NCBI RefSeq assembly: GCF_000682695.1
Contig: NZ_AWFG01000030.1
Location: 124,001 to 188,000, forward strand
Length of the DNA: 64,000 nt
Reading direction: 5' to 3'
Source of the DNA: Hyphomonas chukchiensis
GTDB taxonomy: Bacteria > Pseudomonadota > Alphaproteobacteria > Caulobacterales > Hyphomonadaceae
Made by a program: the position numbers and the translations under genes. Below are positions 9,189 to 41,449 of this stretch, piece after piece (positions within the stretch are counted from its first letter, which is position 1; the number at the start of each line of letters is the position of its first letter). The notes beneath the pieces were generated by a model. The model saw nothing but the letters and a program-made list of their open reading frames with translations. It had not been told where the DNA came from and searched no databases.

Positions 9189-9626
9189 ATGCTGCTGCGC
9201 CCCCTATTCGTGCTTGCCCTTGCGGGCAGCGTGCTGGGCGCCTGTGCCCGGCTCCCGGCCCAGCCGGTGACCGAAATGGCCGATGGCATGCTCTATGCGG
9301 GTGTCGAACAGGATGGCAGCGCCGTGGCGATGCAGGTCGGTCAGACCCTGCGCATCGAGCTCGAAACCATTCCCACGGCCGGCTATGTCTGGGAGATCGT
9401 GGACAAGCCCGATTTCCTTGACCTTGTGGCCGAGAACACCCGCCCGACCCATCCGGAAGTCCAGAACCAGGAAGGCTTTACCGGCGGCAACCATTTCATG
9501 GCGTTTGACCTGAAGGCGACCGCGCCGGGCAAGGCGACGATCAATATGCTCAATCACCGGCCCTGGGAGGCCGGTGAAACGATCGGCACCTGGCGCATGG
9601 ACGTCACGGTCACACCAGCGCAATAA
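9189..9626 (+). CDS. Chagasin-like (I42) protease inhibitor, lipoprotein
   Basis: A 145-residue lipoprotein with lipobox LGAC. The mature domain contains the three loops typical of chagasin-family cysteine-protease inhibitors: IPTAGYVW (like NPTTGY-W), GGNHFMAF, and RPWE near the C-terminus. The start at 9189 is chosen because a strong GGAGGAG site precedes it. It probably guards the periplasm or surface against proteases, or controls an endogenous one. It ends 6 bases before the Rieske oxygenase gene. Confidence 0.82.
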   Translation: MLLRPLFVLALAGSVLGACARLPAQPVTEMADGMLYAGVEQDGSAVAMQVGQTLRIELETIPTAGYVWEIVDKPDFLDLVAENTRPTHPEVQNQEGFTGGNHFMAFDLKATAPGKATINMLNHRPWEAGETIGTWRMDVTVTPAQ

Positions 9627-9632
9627 GGGCCC

Positions 9633-10733
9633 ATGGCAGACACCCAGACCTCTCCGGCTCCACGCCTCGGCATCACGGATGACGGCTATCTCACCGATTG
9701 CTGGTATCTCGCCGCGCCCTCGTCTGAGCTGAAGCCGGGCAAGCAGCACCGCATCATGATGCTGGGCGAACCGGTTGTCGTGGGCCGCACGCCCGCAGGC
9801 GAGGCCTTTGCGCTGCGCGATATCTGCCCGCACCGGCTGGTGCCGCTCTCGGCGGGCAAGCAGCTGGAGACCGATGGCGAGTGGACGCTGCAATGCCCCT
9901 ATCATGGCTGGCGCTTCGGCACGGATGGCGGCTGCAAGCTGATGCCGAGCCTCACCGACGACAGCACCTACGATCCTTCAAAAGTGAAAGTGCGCCGCTA
10001 TCCGGTGCACGAGGCCAATGGCGCGGTCTTCATCTATATCGCCCATAACCCGCGCGTTGACGCGCCGCCCGCCGTGCCGCCGCCGGATTTCGGTCCGCTG
10101 CCGGACAAGCCCGGCTTTGTCATCCATGACGTGTTCAATGCCCACATGGACGATGCCGTCGTCGGCCTGATGGACCCTGCGCATGTGCCCTTCGTGCATA
10201 ATCAATGGTGGTGGCGCCCGCCGTCGGTTGGCCTGAAGCTGAAAGAGAAACAGTTCGTGCCTGCGCTGCGCGGCTGGGCGATTGACCGCCACCGGCCCTC
10301 GTCCAACTCGCTGCTCTATCGCTGGGTGTTCGGCGGCAATGTCGAAACCGAGATCATCTTCCAGCTGCCCGGCTTTCGCTGGGAGATCGTCTCGAACGAA
10401 ACCGCCCGCCTGCTGACGCTCACCTGCCTGACGCCGGAAGGCCCCAAACGCACACGGATCACCCAGTTCACCTGGTGGACAGGCGCGCCGCTCTTGCGCC
10501 TCGCGGTGCCCATCGCCAAACCGGCAGGCCGCAAGTTCCTGCGCCAGGATGGCGACATGGTCGACCTGCAGAATCAGGGCATGGCGCACCAGAAGGCGAT
10601 GCTCTGGATCGACGATATCGACGTGCAGGCCAAATGGTACCAGCGCCTCAAGCGCGAATGGGTCGAGGCCCGCTCCGAGGGCCGCGACTTCGCCAACCCC
10701 ATAGAGCCACGCGTGCTGAAATGGATGAGCTGA
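9633..10733 (+). CDS. Rieske [2Fe-2S] aromatic ring-hydroxylating oxygenase, alpha subunit
   Basis: A 366-residue non-heme iron oxygenase. Rieske cluster ligands are Cys65/His67 (CPHRL) and Cys88/His91 (CPYHGW). The catalytic domain has NAHMDDAVVGLMDPAHVPFVH, with the Asp and two His expected to bind mononuclear iron. The architecture matches vanillate/phenylpropionate-type single-component oxygenases. No ferredoxin reductase partner lies nearby. The substrate is unknown. The start follows the chagasin-like gene closely. Confidence 0.88.
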   Translation: MADTQTSPAPRLGITDDGYLTDCWYLAAPSSELKPGKQHRIMMLGEPVVVGRTPAGEAFALRDICPHRLVPLSAGKQLETDGEWTLQCPYHGWRFGTDGGCKLMPSLTDDSTYDPSKVKVRRYPVHEANGAVFIYIAHNPRVDAPPAVPPPDFGPLPDKPGFVIHDVFNAHMDDAVVGLMDPAHVPFVHNQWWWRPPSVGLKLKEKQFVPALRGWAIDRHRPSSNSLLYRWVFGGNVETEIIFQLPGFRWEIVSNETARLLTLTCLTPEGPKRTRITQFTWWTGAPLLRLAVPIAKPAGRKFLRQDGDMVDLQNQGMAHQKAMLWIDDIDVQAKWYQRLKREWVEARSEGRDFANPIEPRVLKWMS

Positions 10734-23404: not shown

Positions 23405-24433
23405 ATGTTCAAAGCCCCGGCTGTAGCCTTCGCCTGTCTCATGCTTGCTGCCTCTCCGGCCGTGGCCCAGCGCAGCGCTCCCATCACGCAAGGCGTGACC
23501 AGTTCAGACCTCTCCAGCCAGGTCGCCACCGTGCGCCAGCAGAACGCGGAGCTGAAAGTTCAGGTCAATAACCTGCTCGGCGACATCATGACCCTCACGG
23601 GCCGCGTCGAGACAATGGAATTCAAGCTCTCGCAGGCCAATGACCTGAGTCAGAGCCTGCAGCGGGACAATGAATCCCTGTCCGACAGTCTCGGAGAGCT
23701 GCGCAAGCAGATGGACGCCCAGTCGCGCACGATTGCCGCGCTTGAAGCCCGCCTTGGCGGTGCAGACTACAGCGACCCGAGCGCCGACCCGGCCGCTGGC
23801 TATCCCGGCACGACGCAAGGCGGCGACTATCCGGCTGCATCGCCCGCTGCCCCCCGCGCGGGCGGTCTCGCTTCCGGCCCGACGCAGCTGATCTCGCCCA
23901 ATGCGGGCAGCACCCCTTCCGGCGTTGCCAACAGTGCTTCCGGTGTTCGCGAAGCCCCGACGCCAGTATCGAACAATCCATCCGAGGACGGTCTGAACCT
24001 GCCGTCCGGCTCGCTGGGCACGATTTCCGCCAGCGACCTGCCGGGCGAGGCGGGCCCGCTGTTTGCGGCGGCCAAGTCCAAGCTGATCCAGTTTGACTAT
24101 GCCGGCGCCGAAGCGGCTTTCCGCCTCTTCCTCGAAAAATTCGGCAATGACCCGCAGGCTGGTGAAGCCCATTACTGGCTGGGCGAAACGCTCTACCAGC
24201 AGAAGGCCTATGCCGACAGCGGCGCGGCCTACACGACGATGATCCGCTCTTTCCCGAACGACCCGCGCGCGCCGGATGCACTGGTCAAGCTCGCCCGTGC
24301 CATGCGGCTCGTGGGTGACAAGGAGAAGGCCTGCCTCGCGCTCGACACGCTGCCGAAACGCTATCCGAACGCATCGGGCGTGACGCGCGACCTGTCGGCC
24401 GTCGAACGGACCAAGTCCGGGTGCGACAACTAG
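23405..24433 (+). CDS. cpoB: Cell division coordinator CpoB (YbgF)
   Basis: A 342-residue periplasmic protein: signal peptide ending AVAQ, an N-terminal trimerising coiled coil (about residues 35-115, with VRQQNAELKVQVNNLL), a long Ser/Pro/Gly linker, and C-terminal TPR repeats (AGEAHYWLGETLYQQKAYADSG). CpoB links PBP1B activity to Tol constriction. The ATG at 23405 is preferred over the adjacent in-frame TTG. Its end overlaps tilS by 13 bases. Confidence 0.92.
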   Translation: MFKAPAVAFACLMLAASPAVAQRSAPITQGVTSSDLSSQVATVRQQNAELKVQVNNLLGDIMTLTGRVETMEFKLSQANDLSQSLQRDNESLSDSLGELRKQMDAQSRTIAALEARLGGADYSDPSADPAAGYPGTTQGGDYPAASPAAPRAGGLASGPTQLISPNAGSTPSGVANSASGVREAPTPVSNNPSEDGLNLPSGSLGTISASDLPGEAGPLFAAAKSKLIQFDYAGAEAAFRLFLEKFGNDPQAGEAHYWLGETLYQQKAYADSGAAYTTMIRSFPNDPRAPDALVKLARAMRLVGDKEKACLALDTLPKRYPNASGVTRDLSAVERTKSGCDN

Positions 24434-25467
24434 AGGGGCTCGCGCCCCGTCTCGCCGCCTTTGACCGGCTTTGCCATGATGCGCGCGGTCCTGTCGGGAT
24501 TGCCATTTCCGGCGGCAGCGATTCGCTCGCGCTCCTCTTCATCGCGCATGAATGGGCCCGTTCGCGCGGGCGCAAGCTGGCGGCGCTGACCTTTGACCAC
24601 AGGCTGCGCACGGCGGCAGCGGGGGAGGCGGCGCGGGTCGCAACGATCTGCCGGGACCTGCATATCCCGCATGAAACCCTGCGCTGGGACGATCCGGTCA
24701 ACCAGCAATCCTCGGCGCGGCGCGCGCGGCATGCTGCGCTGGCGCTGGCGCTGAAGGCGCAGGGCGGCACGCATTTGCTGACCGGGCACACGGCCAATGA
24801 CCAGGCAGAAACGTTCCTGATACGGGCCCGGCAGGGGTCCGGATGGTACGGTTTGGCGGGCATGCAGGCCCTTTCCATGTCCCCTGTCTGGCCGGAAGGG
24901 GAGGGCGTGCGCATTGCCAGGCCCGTCCTTTCGGAAAAGCGCGAAGACCTGCGCAGCCTGCTACATGAACGCGGGCAGGTCTGGATTGAGGACCCGAGCA
25001 ATGAAAACCTTGCCTATGAGCGCGTGCGCATGCGCCGACTGCTGGCGAGATCGCCTGAGACGGCCGAGCGGATCAGCCGCTGCATGAAGGAGCTGGCAGG
25101 CCTGCGCGCCGTGGAGGACCGGCGGCTCGGACGCTGGCTGTGCGATCATGTGCGGGTCAGCGCGGCAGGCGACGGGATCGAGGCGGATCTCGGCCTGCTG
25201 CCAATGGATGCTGCGGTGCGGGGGCTGGCGCTGCTGATCCAGGCCGTGACGGGGCGGGAGACGCCGCCGCGGCAGGAGAATACGGCCAATCTGGCCCAGC
25301 GCCTGAGGGCGGATCAGACCTTTGCGGGTGCGACACTTGGCGGGGCAAAGCTTGTCCGCAGGCAGGGGAGGGTCCACCTTATGCCTGAAGCGGGGCGCGA
25401 TGGCCCGGAAACACTAGTTTCGCGGCGTATTGATGGTTTACGAAGACTCTATGCAGCCCGCGCATGA
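24421..25467 (+). CDS. tilS: tRNA(Ile)-lysidine synthetase TilS
   Basis: A 348-residue enzyme that modifies C34 of the minor isoleucine tRNA to lysidine. The PP-loop ATP site is GIAISGGSDSLALL. The N-terminal domain also has ALTFDHRLR, HETLRWDD and LLTGHTANDQAETFL. The GTG start at 24421 lies within the end of cpoB, giving translational coupling. It is shorter than E. coli TilS, with a reduced C-terminal region, as is usual in alphaproteobacteria. Confidence 0.93.
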   Translation: MRQLEGLAPRLAAFDRLCHDARGPVGIAISGGSDSLALLFIAHEWARSRGRKLAALTFDHRLRTAAAGEAARVATICRDLHIPHETLRWDDPVNQQSSARRARHAALALALKAQGGTHLLTGHTANDQAETFLIRARQGSGWYGLAGMQALSMSPVWPEGEGVRIARPVLSEKREDLRSLLHERGQVWIEDPSNENLAYERVRMRRLLARSPETAERISRCMKELAGLRAVEDRRLGRWLCDHVRVSAAGDGIEADLGLLPMDAAVRGLALLIQAVTGRETPPRQENTANLAQRLRADQTFAGATLGGAKLVRRQGRVHLMPEAGRDGPETLVSRRIDGLRRLYAARA

Positions 25468-25560: not shown

Positions 25561-27483
25561 ATGAACGTGCGAAATCTTGCCATCTGGGGGGCGATTGCCC
25601 TGCTTGTTATCGGCATGGCCGTTGCCATGGGCGGATCTTCCGAAGCCGACAGCGCCAAGAAGGCGAAACTGTCGGAAATCTACGCGCTGATCGATTCCGG
25701 CCAGGTGGCCGAGGCGACGCTGGGCGACCAGCAGATCGTCGTGACCACGACCGACAATCGCAAGCTGGTCAGCGAACTGCGCGGCCTCGACATGGAAACG
25801 CAGGGCGTGCTGGTCAAAGAAGGCGTGCCCTTCTCGGTTGATGCCGATAGCGGCCGCAACAATTTCGCCTCGCTGATCTTCTCGATCCTGCCCATCCTGC
25901 TGATCGTCGGCTTTGTCTTCTTCATGATGCGCCAGATGCAGGGTGGCGGCGGACGCGGTGCGATGAGCTTCGGCAAGTCGCGGGCCCGGCTGCTGACCGA
26001 AAAGCATGGCCGCGTCACGTTTGACGATGTGGCCGGTGTCGACGAAGCCAAGGAAGAGCTGCAGGAGATCGTCGAGTTCCTGCAGGACCCTTCGAAATTC
26101 CAGCGCCTCGGCGGCAAGATCCCGAAAGGCGCGCTGCTCGTCGGCCCTCCCGGTACAGGTAAGACGCTTCTGGCCCGCGCGGTTGCCGGTGAAGCCGGTG
26201 TGCCCTTCTTCACGATTTCCGGTTCGGACTTTGTCGAAATGTTCGTCGGCGTCGGCGCGAGCCGCGTGCGTGACATGTTCGAGCAGGCGAAGCGCTCTGC
26301 CCCGTGCATCATCTTCATTGACGAGATCGACGCTGTCGGCCGTTCGCGTGGCGCAGGCCTCGGCGGCGGCAATGACGAGCGTGAGCAGACGCTGAACCAG
26401 CTGCTCGTCGAGATGGACGGCTTCGAAGCCAATGAAGGCATCATCCTCGTCGCGGCCACCAACCGGCCTGACGTGCTGGACCCGGCGCTGCTGCGTCCCG
26501 GCCGTTTCGACCGCCAGATCACGGTCGGCAACCCGGACATTATCGGCCGCGAGAAAATCCTGCGCGTCCACATGCGCAATGTGCCGCTGGCCAAGGATGT
26601 CGACTCCAAGACGATCGCGCGCGGTACGCCCGGCTTCTCGGGTGCTGACCTTGCCAACCTCGTCAACGAGGCGGCCCTTCTGGCGGCCCGTCGCGGCAAG
26701 CGTGTTGTTGCCATGGCCGAGTTCGAGGATGCGAAAGACAAGGTCCTGATGGGCCCTGAGCGCCGCTCGATGGTCATGTCCGAAAAGGAAAAAGAGCTGA
26801 CGGCCTGGCATGAAGCCGGTCACGCCATCGTGGCCATGATCGTGCCGTCGGCCGATCCGGTCCACAAGGCGACGATCATTCCTCGCGGACGTGCGCTCGG
26901 CATGGTCATGCAGCTGCCGGAAGACGACAAGCTGTCCATGTCCAAGATCGAGATGACCAGCCGTCTCGCCATCATGATGGGCGGCCGCGTGGCCGAGGAA
27001 CTGAAATTCGGCCATGACAATGTCACTGCCGGTGCCGCCTCGGACATCCAGCAGGCCACCCGTCTCGCACGGGCCATGGTCACGCGCTGGGGCTTTGCCG
27101 ACAATATCGGTCCGGTGGACTATGGGTCCGACCAGGGCGACGTGTTCCTTGGCCAGCAGCTGATGCAGTCTTCGCATGTGTCGGAAGACACCTCGCGCAA
27201 GATCGAGGAAGAAGTCCGCAAGCTGATCCAGACCGGCATGGACGAAGCCCGCCGCATCATGACCGACAGCCGCGACAAGTGGGAAGCCATCGCTGAAGGC
27301 CTGCTCGAATACGAGACCCTGTCGGGCGAGGAGATTGCCGAACTGCTGAAAGGCAACAAGCCGACACGGCCAGACCTGTCGGACGATGATTCCGGCCCGG
27401 CCCCGGCTGTCCCGGTCATCGGCAAGCGCCGCAAGCCCAAGGGCGATGCCGGCCTTGGCGATACTGAGCCGAACCCGGCCTGA
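25561..27483 (+). CDS. ftsH: ATP-dependent zinc metalloprotease FtsH
   Basis: A 640-residue membrane-bound AAA+ protease. There are two N-terminal spans (residues 5-23 and about 101-123), a periplasmic segment between them, Walker A GPPGTGKT (about residues 195-202), Walker [12 protein letters not shown], the second region of homology [18 protein letters not shown], and the zinc site HEAGH (about 417). It degrades membrane proteins, heat-shock sigma factor and LpxC in other bacteria. tilS upstream and ftsH is a common alphaproteobacterial order next to tol-pal. Confidence 0.97.
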
Positions 27484-32171: not shown

Positions 32172-32401
32172 CTGAATGTCTCCTTTTCGATCTGCAAGCG
32201 TCGTGGCTCGTTCGAAGCAGACAGCAGGGAGCGGGTCGTCAGCCCTTCATATGTGAGGAAGCGCGGGGGCCATTCCAACGCGCCGGGGCGGGGCGGCTGC
32301 CATTAAATTTCAGACATTTGCGCGGGCCATGCGCGCGCCGGGCGCTTGCCGGGGGCGGGGGATGGTGCGAGCCTTTGGAAAAGGGCGGGGAGGCCAAGGC
32401 G

Positions 32402-32773
32402 ATGACGGCGATATTCTTCTGGGCGGCGGCAGGCGTGGCGATGCTGACCGTGCTCATCCATGTCTTCCTGGGCGGGGCGAAATTCGTGCGGCCCTTCCTC
32501 GCGGTGGAGATGGATCCGGGCCTGAAATGGCTCGCCTACCTGATGTGGCACCTCGGCACAGTGTCGACCCTCTTCATCGCGCTCGGCTTTGCGGCCGGCG
32601 CGGTGCACCCGGAACATGCCGACTATGCCGCCATCGCGACGGCGGGCGCGGCGGGCTTTGTTTGCGTCGCGCTGTTCACGGCGGTGAAATCCGGCCTCTC
32701 GCCCCTCCGCTTCCCGGTCATCCCGATGTTCAGCCTCGTGACGGGGCTGGGGCTGGCGGGGCTGTTTGTTTGA
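32402..32773 (+). CDS. Small four-span membrane protein
   Basis: A 123-residue protein made mostly of hydrophobic helices (about residues 2-24, 43-65, 75-96 and 102-122), with short loops and a conserved-looking LIHVFLGGAKFVRPFL after helix 1. The start at 32402 follows a GAGG site. No named family is recognised; the size and topology resemble small uncharacterised inner-membrane proteins of alphaproteobacteria. Confidence 0.65.
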   Translation: MTAIFFWAAAGVAMLTVLIHVFLGGAKFVRPFLAVEMDPGLKWLAYLMWHLGTVSTLFIALGFAAGAVHPEHADYAAIATAGAAGFVCVALFTAVKSGLSPLRFPVIPMFSLVTGLGLAGLFV

Positions 32774-32850
32774 GGGGGAGGGCATTTGAAGACTGGACGC
32801 CGCTAGGAGAGGTAGGTTGTGCCGCTTTTAACCACAAGTGTGCCCATAAC

Positions 32851-34602
32851 CTACCGTGAAACAAACTCGTTTAATTCAGATAGTGTTTCCAACAAATCGT
32901 CTGCTAATATTCCCGCTCTTAACTCACCACAAATCGCGGCCAGAGATACGGAAGCGCCAAACTGAGTTTTCAATTCTACGAGAACTTTTGAAAGGACCTC
33001 CTTGCCCGGACAGAGCGCGATCTTTCCTTCAATAGACGCCCAATCCGTCTCGAAGGCATCTAGTGCTTCCGTAATCACTACTGTGTCGTCCTTTGCCGAT
33101 CGATTCTCTCGGGCAAATCTGGCCGCATTCGACGCGATTTGAGCGGACACGTAATTTCTGTGTCCTGCGGCTATCTTCGAGATGATTTGCTCGACTTCCT
33201 CAGCTTGAATGGCCCCAACTTTTCCCGGTTTGCGGTTGAGTTGCGTGTTTGTAGCCTTTGCGATTGCTCTTGGCTCCAAGAGGTAATTTTCAATTTCCTT
33301 TCGAGATAAAACAAAGCACTCAACGCCTGCTTCACTCATTCGCTTGATGAACGCGCTTGTTTCATCGCCGCAGCGGTAGTCCCGATCGAACATGCATTTT
33401 GTTTGGATGGATATTTCCAAAAGTTCCTTGAAAGCCCACACGGTATGCTCGGCTCGACGCCATTGAGAAAATCCGCCCAACTTAAAAATTGGGGATTTCT
33501 GTTCTATGGCTAGATATTCTAATCCATTAGCCTTCGCAATTCGCCTCAATATTCGAGCGTCATTTCCCTCGACGAAAATTACCTTTTTAACTTTAGATAT
33601 CTTGGCAAAATCAGCGTTTTCCGCCGAACCGATATAGTTTAGCATCAGGTCATAGTCGGCATCGTTCCTAATTCTTCTGCCTGTTGCATTCGAAGGATTA
33701 ATCACAACAATTTCGTGTGTGTCGGCTTCGTTTATTATTTCTGTTGCGTGTGTCGCAACGAAATACTGAGAGAATTGTTCTTTTATATCATGGTAGAGCC
33801 GATGCTGAAGGTCAGGGTGCAGATATATATCAGGCTCATCGATAACTAAAATTGAATCTGGCCCCCCTCGTATCATGTGGGTGTGGATTTGCAGCCAAAC
33901 TTGGAAGCCGAAACCTGCCCATTGTATTTCGCGGGTTATCCGCTTCTCCTCAAAAAACATCTTTACGGTAGGAGGTGACGTCGTATCCCACTCTGGGCGT
34001 TGAAGCTTGATCCCCGGCCAAGCTCGCTCAACCCGGATTTTAAATAGATCAAATGTTTCCTGATCCTCAGCTAACCAAATGTTTCTGAAGTTGCGAGCTG
34101 CTAGACGTGTTCCGCGGTTGCGTTGAACTGTCTCTGCACGAACAATAATTTCTTCCGCCTCAAGCGGGCTCAACGTCGGGACAACGATTAGTTCGACGGG
34201 GAAAGCGTCTCGAAACTTTTTCGAAGTCGACAATCTCTTGCCATTGTCGATAAAAAATCTAACCGTTCTCTCTGGGTGAAGCAGTAGTATTGCTTTCGCG
34301 CCGTTTGAGTGTTGAAAGATGATCGTCGCATCATCTTCGCCGTAGTCTGTTGTGATGTTTGCTAGGGTGAATGGTAGGCTGTTATCTGGGACGTTATAGC
34401 CTTCAAATGTCCCAAAATCGGATGAAATTAGTGTCGGGCTTCGCTGCCTAGCGTACCGCAAACTCACATTGAGTAAACGTAACGCGTCAAGGATAGATGA
34501 TTTTCCCGAGTTATTTGGTCCCACCAAGATGTTTCCATCTCGGGTCGACAGCGTGAAGCTGGAAAATCTCTTAAAATTTCTAAGGCTTATTGATTTTATC
34601 AT
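32851..34602 (-). CDS. OLD-family ATPase/TOPRIM nuclease
   Basis: A 583-residue protein. ABC-type ATPase: Walker A GPNNSGKSS (residues 28-36), Walker B ILVIDEPDIYLHP (251-263) and the H-loop His285 in ATHATEI. The C-terminal TOPRIM domain has Glu345 (FVEGNDARIL) and the Asp406/Asp408 pair (FDRDYR). OLD proteins are anti-phage or DNA-processing nucleases. The gene is visibly lower in GC than its neighbours and no helicase partner is adjacent, so a Gabija call is not supported. Substrate and role remain inferred. Confidence 0.85.
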   Translation of the reverse strand: MIKSISLRNFKRFSSFTLSTRDGNILVGPNNSGKSSILDALRLLNVSLRYARQRSPTLISSDFGTFEGYNVPDNSLPFTLANITTDYGEDDATIIFQHSNGAKAILLLHPERTVRFFIDNGKRLSTSKKFRDAFPVELIVVPTLSPLEAEEIIVRAETVQRNRGTRLAARNFRNIWLAEDQETFDLFKIRVERAWPGIKLQRPEWDTTSPPTVKMFFEEKRITREIQWAGFGFQVWLQIHTHMIRGGPDSILVIDEPDIYLHPDLQHRLYHDIKEQFSQYFVATHATEIINEADTHEIVVINPSNATGRRIRNDADYDLMLNYIGSAENADFAKISKVKKVIFVEGNDARILRRIAKANGLEYLAIEQKSPIFKLGGFSQWRRAEHTVWAFKELLEISIQTKCMFDRDYRCGDETSAFIKRMSEAGVECFVLSRKEIENYLLEPRAIAKATNTQLNRKPGKVGAIQAEEVEQIISKIAAGHRNYVSAQIASNAARFARENRSAKDDTVVITEALDAFETDWASIEGKIALCPGKEVLSKVLVELKTQFGASVSLAAICGELRAGILADDLLETLSELNEFVSR

Positions 34603-34621
34603 CGTGCTTCGGTTGCACGAT
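34601..34621. promoter_or_regulatory. Inverted repeat over the OLD-nuclease start codon
   Basis: ATCGTGC (34601-34607) and GCACGAT (34615-34621) are a perfect 7-base inverted repeat whose left arm includes part of the ATG. No Shine-Dalgarno is evident. It could be an operator or a start-codon hairpin. Confidence 0.35.
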
Positions 34622-34825
34622 TCTCAGCAAGTGGAAACGCCTGTCAGGCAATAGCCTCACCCTTGTACCTGACTTCGGAAAGTCCGGCCTTGAAGTCTTT
34701 TGATTTCCCTGGCCCACTAGCTCTTGCGGCCATTTTTTAAGCTAGGGGTGTTCGTTGTAGGACATCGCCTTTGCTTAGTAGCGAATTTAGGCGGCGATAG
34801 TCGTGACGCAGCATTCGTGTGCCCC

Positions 34826-36136
34826 CTAAACCATCTCCAGCAATCCGTTCCTGTACAGGGTTTGCAGGTGGAGGATGATGTCCTTGGGGGGCGGGGCGGT
34901 GGCGCTTTCGGGCCAGGCGATGACGTGCGGGAGGGTGAAGCCGGCGGTTTCGGTCGTCATGCGGCGGAGGATGGGCGCCAGCGTGGCGGGGAAGGTTAGC
35001 AGGCCATTGTCGCAGGGCAGGGTCAGCGTGTCGCCGGTTTCGATGAAGCGCAGGGGCGCGGCGCGGGCGACGCGGAAGCGGTCTTCCGCCGTGGCGCGGG
35101 GCAGGGGCTGGACGGGGTCTGGCGCCCAGCCCGTATAGGGGCCGGCGGTGAGGGCGTCGAGCCAGGGGCCGGCCATGGCCTGAGGGTTGTCGATGATGGC
35201 GCGCGCCTGCGTGTAAAACTCGTCCAGCCGGTCGCGCATATAGGCGGCGACTTCGGGGGGCATCCGGCCGTCAATGGCGCCGACCGTGGCGGGCGGGCCG
35301 CCGCGCCAGTGGCCGTTCGCACTGGCAAATTCCAGCAGCAGGGGGGCGAGCTGGTCGAACAGGTTGCGGGGGGCGAAGTAGACGTTGAGGGCGAGCGACA
35401 CGCCCACGCCGCGGGCCGAATGCCACGCCCCGGCGGGCAGGCAGAGCAGGTCGCCGGGGCTTAGCTCCACGGTGCGGAAGGTCATGTCGGCGGGGGGCGT
35501 GCCGGGGTCTGCGGCGGCGGAGACGATCTGGCCGTCCTTGTACGTGGCGTTGGCGTCGGGCCAGGGGCGCGCGGCTTCGGTGGAGAAGGTCCAGCGCTTG
35601 CGGCCGGCGATCTGGAGCGTGGTGGCGACGCGCCGGTCATAGTGCATGGGCAGGCCCGCGCCATCGGGCGAGACATAGCAGTTGACGCCCACCGTGCCGG
35701 AAAAGATGAGCTGGGCACGGAGGGCCTGCGCCCAGCGGGCGAGCGCGGGATCGGCCATGTGGATATTGGTGATGCAGATGGTGGCGCCGGCGGTCAGCAG
35801 CTCGGTGACCTGGGGGATCTGCGCCTCGAACATGGGGCGGCGGCTGCCATCGGCCTCGCCGCCCGCGAAGGAGGCCATGAGGTTGAAGCGCCGGTCCTGA
35901 AGGGTCTCGCCGCGCGCGAGGGCCTGTTTCAGCCGCGCCCAGCTGAAGATGTGGGCGAACTTGGCCTCGGGGCCTTCGACATTGAGCGACTGGCGGGCGA
36001 AATAGTCAGTGGCGAAGGCCTCGGGCGTGAGGGGGCTGAGCAGGGCCTCCAGCTCGCGGCCGGTGAGGGGCGCAGGCGCGGCGGCCGCGTCAGGCGCGCC
36101 GGGGCCGAGCAGGGCGTGGAAGTCTGTCTGGGTCAT
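34826..36136 (-). CDS. JmjC/cupin-like 2-oxoglutarate oxygenase (RoxA-type)
   Basis: A 436-residue protein. The core double-stranded beta helix has HYDRR (His-x-Asp iron ligands), GRKRWTF, ELSPGDLLCLPAGAWHSARG (second His) and SLALNVYF. This order matches JmjC/cupin ribosomal oxygenases such as YcfD/RoxA, but the substrate is unknown. The gene has normal high GC and separates the two AT-richer segments, so it belongs to the core genome. Confidence 0.8.
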   Translation of the reverse strand: MTQTDFHALLGPGAPDAAAAPAPLTGRELEALLSPLTPEAFATDYFARQSLNVEGPEAKFAHIFSWARLKQALARGETLQDRRFNLMASFAGGEADGSRRPMFEAQIPQVTELLTAGATICITNIHMADPALARWAQALRAQLIFSGTVGVNCYVSPDGAGLPMHYDRRVATTLQIAGRKRWTFSTEAARPWPDANATYKDGQIVSAAADPGTPPADMTFRTVELSPGDLLCLPAGAWHSARGVGVSLALNVYFAPRNLFDQLAPLLLEFASANGHWRGGPPATVGAIDGRMPPEVAAYMRDRLDEFYTQARAIIDNPQAMAGPWLDALTAGPYTGWAPDPVQPLPRATAEDRFRVARAAPLRFIETGDTLTLPCDNGLLTFPATLAPILRRMTTETAGFTLPHVIAWPESATAPPPKDIILHLQTLYRNGLLEMV

Positions 36137-36201
36137 GGGATATGCGCCGCCGCGATTACCTTACGTTGAGCCGAAGCCTAGACGTAAACGGAATTAGAGT
36201 G

Positions 36202-36419
36202 GGGCTCAAGGCGGGGGGCGTGTGGGGGCGGCAAGTGGCCTTTGCTAGTTGGGAGGCCGCCTTCATTGAGACCCGGTTCGACCCGGCCCTAAAAGCCCTG
36301 CGCCAACGCTTCGAAGCGGCCGGAAAGCCGTTCAAGGTCCCATCATCGCCGTCGCCCGCATCCTGCTCACACACCTCAACGCCATCGTCAGGGAGCAGCG
36401 AAACTACTTGCCGCGATAA
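36202..36419 (+). pseudogene. IS110-family transposase C-terminal remnant, frameshifted
   Basis: Positions 36202-36340 read RQVAFASWEAAFIETR then FDPALKALRQRFEAAGKPFKV, like the IS110 (transposase_20) C-terminus. At about 36340 one base appears to be lost. Reading on in the next frame gives IIAVARILLTHLNAIVRE, ending NYLPR and a stop (36417-36419), exactly the continuation expected. Only about 70 codons survive; no N-terminal DEDD domain is present. Confidence 0.8.
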
Positions 36420-36509
36420 CAGTTGCTACGCTTGCTATCATGATAGTGGGATTAGCGCTGAGGGTGGTGCGAGCGGATGCCCCGAAGTTAATCAAAAGTT
36501 TTCGCGCGA

Positions 36510-37586
36510 TTAGTCTTCCCAGTCTTCTTCGAACGCCCCAGGTGGAGGCGACGTGCCATAGAATGCCTGACGATGAAGATGGATGTTGACTCTTGCTGCG
36601 ACATTTTTCTGAGGCGTATTGATTCCGAGTTCTTGGCTAATTGTGGTGTTTTGAATCATCTCTTCACCCCATATTCCCAAATTACCGTCCCAATACGGAG
36701 AACGCAATATGGCCTCGGCGGCGTCTTCGAAACTCCACTCATCCTCCTTATTGCGCGCAATGTACCACGACTGTTCGCCCGGGTAATCGATTCGATCCAG
36801 TGGGCGACTGGCAAAGCCACCGGGCTCTCTAGGTCTAGTGCTAGCCCAGTCTCCATAGATAATTCGGGCTCGATTTGAATTCCTTGAAACTTGATCAAGC
36901 AAAACCCGATTGGAGAACTCAATCCGAGTGGGCGTGTCAGAGCTAAAGCTAGAAAACATTTTTGGTATAGACGTACACGAAATAATTATAGGTATTTGGG
37001 CGTCGATCTTCGTTGAAATTTCAGAAATTACACCTGTAAACCAGACCGCCAATTGTAGCGGATCTCTCGTCCAGCCGCCCTCAATGAGAATAGCGAAGTC
37101 CGCTGTGCCTGATGAAGCGAAAGCATCCATTATATCCACAAAATTCTCAGGAAAGCGATCACGGACAATTCTCAACAAGTAAGGACGATTGAGGGCTTGC
37201 ACCCTTTGAATTTGCTGTTGGATTTCGTCTTGGCTTTGCCCACGGGTCTGAATTGTGGGCATAACATTTGGATATTGAGAAACAAATTCAATCCAGTTTT
37301 TGAAGCAATCTTGCGGCTCGAATAGAACGGCCAGCTCTTGCTGAGCCGTAGCTTCCAGATTCGTAAATTGGTAGTCGCGATCAAGGTCAAGAAAGTACAT
37401 CCTGTTTGGGAATGCCCTTTCGATCCTATCAATGGTTCGGCTGAGCGAGTTAGAATTAGCCCACGGTGCCAATAGAAAGCATGGAGTTATGAGATTCTTT
37501 GACGCTCCCAGTGAGAACTCGAGTCCGTTCATCTCACTAGCGCGAACCGCCAATGTCGGAACATATAAACTATTCTCTAGAGCCAT
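36510..37586 (-). CDS. 'Beta protein' family member (third gene of an AT-rich module)
   Basis: A 358-residue protein. The start NSLYVPTLAVRASEMNGLEF and the later blocks MYFLDLDRDYQ, VMPTIQTRG, FAILIEGGWTRDP and IIYGDWAST fit the Beta-protein family named after a phage T4 protein (TIM-barrel-like). The C-terminal part has WYIARNKEDEWSFEDAAEAI and YWDGNLGIWGEEMI. It lies 8 bases after the ImmA/IrrE gene. Lower GC than its surroundings suggests transfer. Function is unknown; the family call is moderately sure. Confidence 0.65.
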   Translation of the reverse strand: MALENSLYVPTLAVRASEMNGLEFSLGASKNLITPCFLLAPWANSNSLSRTIDRIERAFPNRMYFLDLDRDYQFTNLEATAQQELAVLFEPQDCFKNWIEFVSQYPNVMPTIQTRGQSQDEIQQQIQRVQALNRPYLLRIVRDRFPENFVDIMDAFASSGTADFAILIEGGWTRDPLQLAVWFTGVISEISTKIDAQIPIIISCTSIPKMFSSFSSDTPTRIEFSNRVLLDQVSRNSNRARIIYGDWASTRPREPGGFASRPLDRIDYPGEQSWYIARNKEDEWSFEDAAEAILRSPYWDGNLGIWGEEMIQNTTISQELGINTPQKNVAARVNIHLHRQAFYGTSPPPGAFEEDWED

Positions 37587-37594
37587 ATTTCACC

Positions 37595-38110
37595 CTAAGC
37601 GAGAACCAGATTCGACAATCGAATTTCCATCGCAGATTTAGATACTTGAAAACTTGCCGCCATACTTTCGATTGTAGCCTCAGCAACTATCCCCTTAAAG
37701 CGATCTTTAAGAACTTTCTCCACAATGCATGCGGGCATCACAAGATCTGCGGCCAATCGATTGGCTTCAAACTCTATACGTTCTGGAGCCCCCGACCTGT
37801 AAAGTACGTTGTCGGTGATGCCGCCCGGCGAGTTCTCTATGACCGAACGATGGAGCAAAAAATGCGCCATTTCATGAGCCAGCGTAAACCTCTGTCGTTC
37901 TCTGGCCTCGTTTCGGTTAATCCGAATATGGAATCCGCCATCTTCGCTAGTTATCTGGCCTGACACGCCTGTAGGGAGATTGGTCAGCTTTACGGACGAC
38001 ACACCCAATGCATCGGCCATGGCGCCGAGTTTGACCGGGATTTCAGATGTGAAATCATTAACGATCTGGCGCTCGTCATGGCTGAGTCTTGAAAATTCTA
38101 CCGATGTCAT
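37595..38110 (-). CDS. ImmA/IrrE family metallo-endopeptidase
   Basis: A 171-residue protein. His79-Glu80-Met-Ala-His83 is the zinc site, and FEANRLAADLVMP with Glu116 supplies the third ligand and the usual helix. A C-terminal MAASFQVSKSAMEIRL is the family's helix. There is no fused N-terminal HTH. ImmA/IrrE proteases cleave repressors in mobile elements and stress systems. A strong AGAGGG site precedes the start. It is the middle gene of a tight three-gene operon. Confidence 0.88.
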   Translation of the reverse strand: MTSVEFSRLSHDERQIVNDFTSEIPVKLGAMADALGVSSVKLTNLPTGVSGQITSEDGGFHIRINRNEARERQRFTLAHEMAHFLLHRSVIENSPGGITDNVLYRSGAPERIEFEANRLAADLVMPACIVEKVLKDRFKGIVAEATIESMAASFQVSKSAMEIRLSNLVLA

Positions 38111-38119
38111 ATTTCCCTC

Positions 38120-38575
38120 TCAACGTTCATTGTTATCAGTTGGGTCGAATCCTGCTTCTAATTCTTCCATATTTCTCATGCTGCGTGATCTGAAGGCAAC
38201 TTCGTCAATTCGCGCAGTAATCGCTTCATCGGAAAGCGCTTCGTCCACCCGCTTTTGTGCCGCTTCTTCAGCTTTCTCTCGTAGCTCGCGAAATGTGTAG
38301 AAAGCTACGAAACCGATCAGAATGGCTAAGGCGCCAAGAATTACGGTCACTGCCGTAAGCAAAACGCTCACGAATGACAAATAAGTAGGTAAGCTAAGCT
38401 CGGGCTCTCGGTCTGTTCCTGCAACGCCATCAACAATATCGACCACGCCCAATTGGAATAGGAGGAAACAGACCACTGCGCCTCCAATAAACACTGCCAA
38501 ATAGCCTGCGACTTTCAACTTCGCCGCTCCGTAGTCGTATTGAGGAAATATATGTTCACTAAACGTTCCTGGCAA
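38120..38575 (-). CDS. Membrane protein with cytosolic coiled coil (first gene of an AT-rich module)
   Basis: A 151-residue protein. Two hydrophobic segments (about residues 21-45 and 66-93) are followed by a charged helix FRELREKAEEAAQKRVDEALS and an acidic tail. The start is a TTG at 38575 with a poor ribosome-binding site; a later GTG would truncate the first span. No family is recognised. It precedes the ImmA/IrrE gene by 9 bases, so the three genes form one operon, and it could be a membrane sensor or effector. Confidence 0.65.
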   Translation of the reverse strand: MPGTFSEHIFPQYDYGAAKLKVAGYLAVFIGGAVVCFLLFQLGVVDIVDGVAGTDREPELSLPTYLSFVSVLLTAVTVILGALAILIGFVAFYTFRELREKAEEAAQKRVDEALSDEAITARIDEVAFRSRSMRNMEELEAGFDPTDNNER

Positions 38576-38656: not shown

Positions 38657-40967
<2,311 letters not shown>

Positions 40968-40971
<4 letters not shown>

Positions 40972-41354
40972 GACGGAAACCCTTTCGGGACGGCGGGCGA
41001 GAGGCCGAGTTCCTTCTGGAGTTTCTTTGTGAGGCCGGCGGCGACGAGCAGGTAGCTGTCGCGGAGATAGGTGAGGAGTTCGGCGTCGGACATGGTCTCG
41101 GCACTGGTGCGCTGGATCCATTTCATGCCGCGCGAGGCCATGTAGGGCGCGCCGCGGCAGCCGGGCTGATCCTTCAAGATGTGGAAGGCAATGGGCGTGA
41201 CCTTGAAGGAGACCTCGGCGATCTCGCCGTCGGCATCATTGGCAATGGCGTAGACCTTGCCGCCGATCTTCCAGACATGCGCGTCGCCCCACTGGCGGAC
41301 ATAGGTCGAGTGGGAGAGGGATTGGCAATGCGCTGTGAACTCGTCGAGCGTCAA
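40968..41354 (-). CDS. MmcQ/YjbR family protein, first gene of the thiC operon
   Basis: A 128-residue DNA-binding-type protein of the MmcQ/YjbR fold. LDEFTAHCQSL at the N-terminus, WKIGGKVYAIAND, and SRGMKWIQ with ELLTYLRDSYLLV at the C-terminus fit. The start is a TTG at 41354 behind a GGAGGA site, just after the riboswitch. It heads a translationally coupled operon with DUF1801 and thiC. YjbR-fold proteins bind DNA in some cases, but none is known in thiamine synthesis. Confidence 0.87.
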
Positions 41355-41366
41355 GTCTGTCCTCCG

Positions 41367-41440
41367 TCCCTCGCGCCGGTATGAGCCGGATCAGGTTCAA
41401 AGGGTAACTCTCAGCCCGCGACCATCGCGGACACCCCTCG
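41367..41440 (-). ncRNA. TPP riboswitch (THI-box)
   Basis: On the minus strand the conserved THI-box pieces occur in order: GGGGTGTCC, GGCTGAGAGTTACCC, GAACCTGATCCGGCTC, ATACCGGCGCGAGGGA. The P1-P5 sequence signature is complete. It lies 12 bases before the MmcQ start and after a good promoter, so it should repress the mmcQ-DUF1801-thiC operon when thiamine pyrophosphate is plentiful. Confidence 0.95.
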
Positions 41441-41449
41441 GATACGGTG

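Follow-up and report, generated by a model that had tools for sequence, protein, structure and literature searches.

What kind of nuclease is encoded by an isolated gene in AT-rich DNA of Hyphomonas chukchiensis, does it act alone, and how did it come to lie where it does? The gene occupies positions 32851-34602 of the window, the whole stretch of 64,000 nucleotides analysed here. A sequence-only reading had described its product as a lone OLD-family nuclease and had placed it at a possible hot spot for defence genes.

Gene, catalytic residues and composition

The minus strand of 32851-34602 contains an intact open reading frame of 583 amino acid residues; the plus strand of the same segment has 28 stop codons. 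On the evidence of reading frame, Pfam, PADLOC, alignment and tree, the product is a single-chain ATPase-TOPRIM protein of an AriAB-like family. The coordinates and the description as a lone ATPase-TOPRIM gene given in the sequence-only reading stand, and the strand, which was missing there, is minus. Residues 1-290 match the Pfam families AAA_15 and AAA_21 and form an ABC-type ATPase.

The catalytic residues, all coded on the minus strand, were compared in an alignment of 47 family members. The Walker A motif GPNNSGKS (residues 28-35, positions 34498-34521) has G28, G33, K34 and S35 invariant in 47 of 47 rows, and the Walker B acidic pair D255 E256 (33835-33840) is kept in all 47. H285 is invariant as well. 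The TOPRIM catalytic glutamate E345 (33568-33570), present in 47 of 47, is paired by hhalign with the glutamate of VEG/IED in the AriB references. In the TOPRIM DxD motif (DRD, residues 406-408, positions 33379-33387) D406 is found in 47 and D408 in 45 of the 47 members, and in the AriB-type motif EIEN (residues 436-439, positions 33286-33297) E438 is found in 47 and N439 in 43. The invariant set consists of G28, G33, K34, S35, D255, E256, H285, E345, D406 and E438. The full ATPase and TOPRIM catalytic sets that had been read from the sequence are confirmed by this conservation.

The gene has a GC content of 0.459 and a GC3 of 0.47, compared with 0.623 GC for the window. The low value is not due to chance, because the lowest-GC stretch of 1,752 nt outside the 32-39 kb segment of the window still reaches 0.583. 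GC3 is 0.75-0.91 in the JmjC gene, thiC and TM151 (all described below) and in the open reading frames 25561-27483 (ftsH by eye) and 24421-25467 (tilS by eye). None of the other 41 genus genomes carries the gene; five of them match it over short pieces of the ATPase only. Its composition is foreign, and recent acquisition, which had been suggested from the lower GC, is supported.

Comparison of the TOPRIM half with AriB and OLD proteins

It is important to compare the C-terminal half of the protein with the two kinds of nuclease to which it could be related, AriB of the PARIS system and OLD. The best PADLOC profile of the whole protein is AriAB, the fused form of PARIS (98.8 bits), and the C-terminal 272 residues are reached by three PADLOC profiles, headed by AriAB and AriB. 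When the 47-row family was aligned by hhalign with seven AriB sequences, the result was 95.3% over 105 columns and ran through the IEN motif; with 12 OLD sequences it was 59.9% over 72 columns.

The fold search with the whole model covers the ATPase part only, and the C-terminal part was therefore folded alone (pLDDT 91.8). In VIA-align this model matched AriB 8ux9_A with Z 12.1 (205 residues, rmsd 4.5) and AriB 8v46_D with Z 10.3 (rmsd 7.7), OLD C-termini with Z 8.2-8.4 and TsOLD with Z 7.9. With Foldseek alone, OLD fragments ranked first (E 0.005), and no AriB stood among the best 50 matches listed. The ATPase half is structurally nearer to PtuA (Z about 22) than to AriA (Z 17.7).

The IEN motif is detected by regular expression in 36 of the 47 family members, the alignment giving its glutamate in every row. 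Inspection by eye places it at the equivalent position in four of the seven AriB references; both AriAB references are without it, and it was not found in the TOPRIM half of the 12 OLD references. The Pfam domain DUF4435 is not recognized in the window protein at E<=0.1 and matches three of 46 members (best 5.1e-5); the two-gene PARIS detection rule of Rousset et al. asks for DUF4435 (PF14491) above 27 bits, a value that the window protein does not reach. OLD-like_TOPRIM (PF20469) is found neither in the window protein at E<=0.1 nor in its C-terminal half at E<=1, and weakly matches ten of the 46 members (best 2.3e-4). The Old and GajA profiles match 46 of 46.

Judged by profile, modelled structure and motif, the predicted TOPRIM half resembles the PARIS nuclease AriB more than it does OLD or GajA. 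The ATPase-TOPRIM plan of the first reading holds; its plain OLD label is too coarse and is not supported as it was worded. The protein shares with PARIS (AriA and AriB, or fused AriAB; the "class 4 OLD") an ABC ATPase, an AriB-type TOPRIM domain with a helical extension and the IEN motif. However, it differs in the missing DUF4435 match, in an ATPase closer to PtuA and in a clade separate from the nine PARIS rows of the tree. Fused single-gene forms of PARIS are described in the consulted parts of PMC9122126 and PMC10568477. The 583-residue protein probably works like PARIS in one chain, judging by this likeness, and is not filed here as a PARIS member.

Absence of a partner gene

The ATPase-TOPRIM plan is also that of Gabija GajA (class 2) and of retron OLD (class 3), but the gene has neither the adjacent UvrD-type helicase GajB of the former nor the adjacent reverse transcriptase or non-coding RNA of the latter. 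A Pfam scan of the immediate neighbours and ten further nearby open reading frames revealed no helicase and no reverse transcriptase. Rfam gave no retron RNA at 29-42 kb of the window, the only match being a TPP riboswitch. Across the 47 family loci no neighbouring gene is present in more than three within 4.5 kb, the flanks being shorter at some loci. The lack of a recurrent neighbour indicates that the functional unit is one gene, in agreement with the earlier statement that no GajB-type helicase, reverse transcriptase or other partner stands beside it.

Distribution and phylogeny of the family

In the class the protein is rare: two of 385 genomes have it, one of them the genome studied here. 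A profile scan of species genomes gave at least 243 confirmed relatives, of which 80 were kept. Among the matches listed they come from Proteobacteria, Paenibacillus, Bacteroidetes, Chloroflexi, Micromonospora, a euryarchaeote and others. The 46-row alignment contains 43 of the 80, two loci from viral contigs and the window protein, the omitted loci being partial, broken or weak; the 47-row set used for neighbours, hhalign, tree and residue counts has one more locus (L042). The 45 aligned relatives are 28-43% identical to the window protein. For comparison, fused AriAB occurs in one of 249 genomes of the phylum at E<=1e-40 and AriB in eight of 249 at E<=1e-8.

Placement among the OLD classes had been proposed as a check, and in the tree the 47-row family forms a single clade with support 100. 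It is separate from the 12 OLD references, which included no named class 1 type sequence, and from the nine PARIS rows, which lie on their own side (support 91); this is a quick tree with long deep branches. The family adjoins a looser group of weaker relatives. A distant relative on a Nostoc plasmid (L030:5001-6878), an ATPase gene flanked by pglX and pglZ in a BREX locus, groups beside it. The family is possibly the same clade as one of the uncharacterised OLD clades U1-U11 of PMC12796447.

Phage and plasmid origins were considered and rejected. Among 50,697 phage records none matches the window protein, and viral contigs yielded none in a first scan and two relatives in a second. Twelve plasmid records match, but only two over at least 80% of the query, both from Cupriavidus and with 32-33% identity.

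The variable interval between thiC and TM151

The surroundings of the gene are bounded by the 3' end of the core gene thiC (38657-40537, minus strand) and, on the opposite side, by a conserved protein of 151 residues, here labelled TM151 (32318-32773, plus strand), as shown by comparison with relatives. A TPP riboswitch (41350-41448, minus strand, Rfam) lies upstream of the thiC gene row. The gene itself is in site A (32786-34821), a piece of inserted AT-rich DNA. Next to it is a native-looking JmjC_2/cupin gene (34826-36136, minus strand; GC3 0.91), which is present in five of the 42 genus genomes and separates the two AT-rich sites.

Site B, the second AT-rich cluster that had been noticed within about 4 kb, consists of three genes on the minus strand: a Beta_protein (PF14350, 36510-37586), an ImmA/IrrE peptidase (PF06114, PADLOC capP-like, 37595-38110) and a small protein with hydrophobic stretches by eye and no match in the Pfam scan (38120-38575). 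In PADLOC the row 36510-38575 resembles parts B and C of PD-Lambda-2 weakly, and the "beta" and capP models more strongly. It is possibly a defence system of its own. The IS110 remnant suspected at 36142-36513 was not confirmed: this open reading frame has no Pfam match at E<=0.01, its 47-residue piece has no plasmid match, and its DNA is present once in the genome and is not a repeat. The segment 32700-38760 shows neither a clear target-site duplication nor a long terminal repeat, and its short repeats look like chance.

The sister species (genome G007) has flanks 91-95% identical in DNA with different contents. The slot equivalent to the one between positions 32785 and 34822 contains unrelated DNA with a protein kinase open reading frame (GC 0.44), and the slot behind thiC codes for an AbiU2-type HEPN protein in place of the Beta_protein and ImmA. 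The distance from thiC to TM151 is 634-639 bp in four relatives (GC 0.59-0.68), 5,143 bp in the sister species and 5,886 bp here. These distances place all three, the 583-residue gene, the JmjC gene and the second cluster, within one variable interval. Fixation in all relatives had been named as the finding that would speak against a variable site, and the comparison found the gene in none of the other 41 genomes.

In 25 of 35 genomes a 500-bp bin with GC of 0.51 or less occurs within 2.5 kb on the 3' side of thiC, compared with 0 of 35 on the 5' side; the sign test (6e-8) is only a guide, since the genomes are related. The 35 are those with at least 1 kb beyond thiC. Seven were left out: four without a thiC match at the cut-off, G009 and G014 with too little sequence, and G017, which is split and also has an AT-rich open reading frame. 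G003 is represented by a second contig, on which the piece of thiC is short.

The 43 AT-rich open reading frames from 26 genomes are nearly all different, with one protein common to three genomes, one common to two and one pair weakly alike. Of 20 cargo proteins scanned, 14 have a Pfam match and six have none. The kinds matched (HEPN, PIN, FRG, AIPR, Fic, Zeta, macro) are mostly common in defence or toxin-antitoxin modules, and PADLOC on ten cargo proteins, nine of them among these 20, matched three to candidate systems. AAA proteins and unknowns are also present in the AT-rich cargo (e.g. L145-L177). That the thiC-TM151 interval is a defence hot spot of the genus is strongly supported, more firmly than the first suggestion had put it. 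Fixed flanks with changing defence cargo are likewise known from the P2/P4 loci, the E. coli defence islands and the Listeria immigration control region; the present hot spot differs in its location at the 3' end of thiC. No title on a thiC hot spot or on this protein family was met in the literature searched, i.e. titles and abstract openings with partial journal coverage.

Possible route of the cargo

Eight of 36 genomes (G013, G008, G039, G001, G019, G040, G034 and G007) carry, about 0.45-1.2 kb beyond thiC and past the inserted DNA, a further partial copy of its 3' end, 68-249 nt long and 71-93% identical. The middle of thiC, used as a control, has no second copy; the window has none of the 3' end. 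Identity among G001, G019 and G039 is 97-99% in the 600 nt that follow thiC, compared with 93-95% in thiC and 91-92% in the 2 kb upstream. This is the pattern expected if units at the thiC 3' end move between species.

One cargo gene (L148:6449-6916, L150:6423-6890, L152:8987-9454) is 99-100% identical in three species whose thiC genes differ by 5-7%, which indicates recent transfer; its assignment to the SF0329 family comes from a scan of the L148 copy only. Beside the cargo of the sister species lies repeat-like GC-rich sequence (L013:6300-6700 and 9400-9850), with similar short peptides in several frames by eye, which may be a repeat element.

Proposed function

The reading that we prefer, and regard as rather probable, is that of a horizontally acquired, self-contained ATPase-TOPRIM defence protein with an AriB-like nuclease, located in the variable thiC-TM151 interval. 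Residues 1 to about 330, the ABC-type ATPase, would most likely serve as an oligomeric sensor and restraint, and the residues from about 340 would make up the AriB-like TOPRIM nuclease and the helical extension that belongs to it. We infer the defence role, the oligomer, the trigger, the substrate and the abortive outcome. On the model of PARIS, a phage product may alter the state of the ATPase and so release the nuclease. RNA, with tRNA as the first candidate, or DNA would then be cleaved and the infected cell stopped. DNA nicking or digestion would be the alternative action of the TOPRIM part. As far as the portions consulted go, AriB cuts tRNA (PMC12409363) and P2 Old is reported to cut host tRNA (cited in PMC13261556); tRNA is the first-guess substrate because both are reported as tRNA cutters.

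The protein might instead be an ordinary class 1 OLD which, like TsOLD, combines ATPase and TOPRIM in one gene and acts on DNA as an exonuclease or nickase; we consider this possible but unlikely. Class 1 OLD (P2 Old, TsOLD 6p74, YbjD) has in common with it the single gene, the order of ATPase and TOPRIM and like catalytic acids. OLD C-terminal structures match the model too, a part of the family is weakly recognized by OLD-like_TOPRIM and all of it by the Old and GajA profiles, and the class is defined by gene context in the part of the review PMC10568477 available. However, AriB is the better match in profile, structure and motif, PF20469 is unmatched in the window protein and in its C-terminal half, the structural scores remain at Z 7.9-8.4, IEN is absent from the 12 references and the tree sets the family apart from them. 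The same portion of that review does not decide whether AriAB proteins fused in a single gene form a separate class or act like class 1 OLD.

Three other explanations concern the role of the gene in its host. Its presence in only one of 42 genus genomes, with a low GC not yet ameliorated, would suit a passenger or decaying cargo without current function, but the full-length frame and the intact state of every catalytic residue make this improbable. That sites A and B are one system, in which the protein works with the Beta_protein and ImmA, could be proposed from their separation of about 4 kb, similar GC and shared strand. Against this, the sites are separated by the high-GC JmjC gene, other loci of the family show no recurrent neighbour and the cargo at both sites is unrelated in the sister species too, so that such cooperation is highly improbable. 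For a housekeeping role, either in the cell cycle or in repair, there is a precedent in archaeal Cran1, an OLD relative in the consulted part of PMC12796447, but the sporadic distribution, absent from the other 41 genus genomes and present in two of 385 in the class including its own, makes it just as hard to accept.

Beyond the preferred reading of a self-contained defence protein, a wider proposal can be made, although it is speculative and we hold it to be doubtful as a whole. The clade may be a distinct and so far undescribed class of immune ATPase-TOPRIM proteins, each encoded by a single gene, in many phyla and at least one archaeon, with an AriB-type RNase and partner-free phage sensing, here carried with cassettes that target the thiC 3' end by a mechanism leaving partial second copies.

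The thiC interval is a genus-wide source of defence candidates, the six scanned cargo proteins without a Pfam match among them. The family, of which 46 full-length relatives are aligned here, offers a compact system for testing whether a lone ATPase-TOPRIM protein protects and whether it cuts tRNA or DNA.
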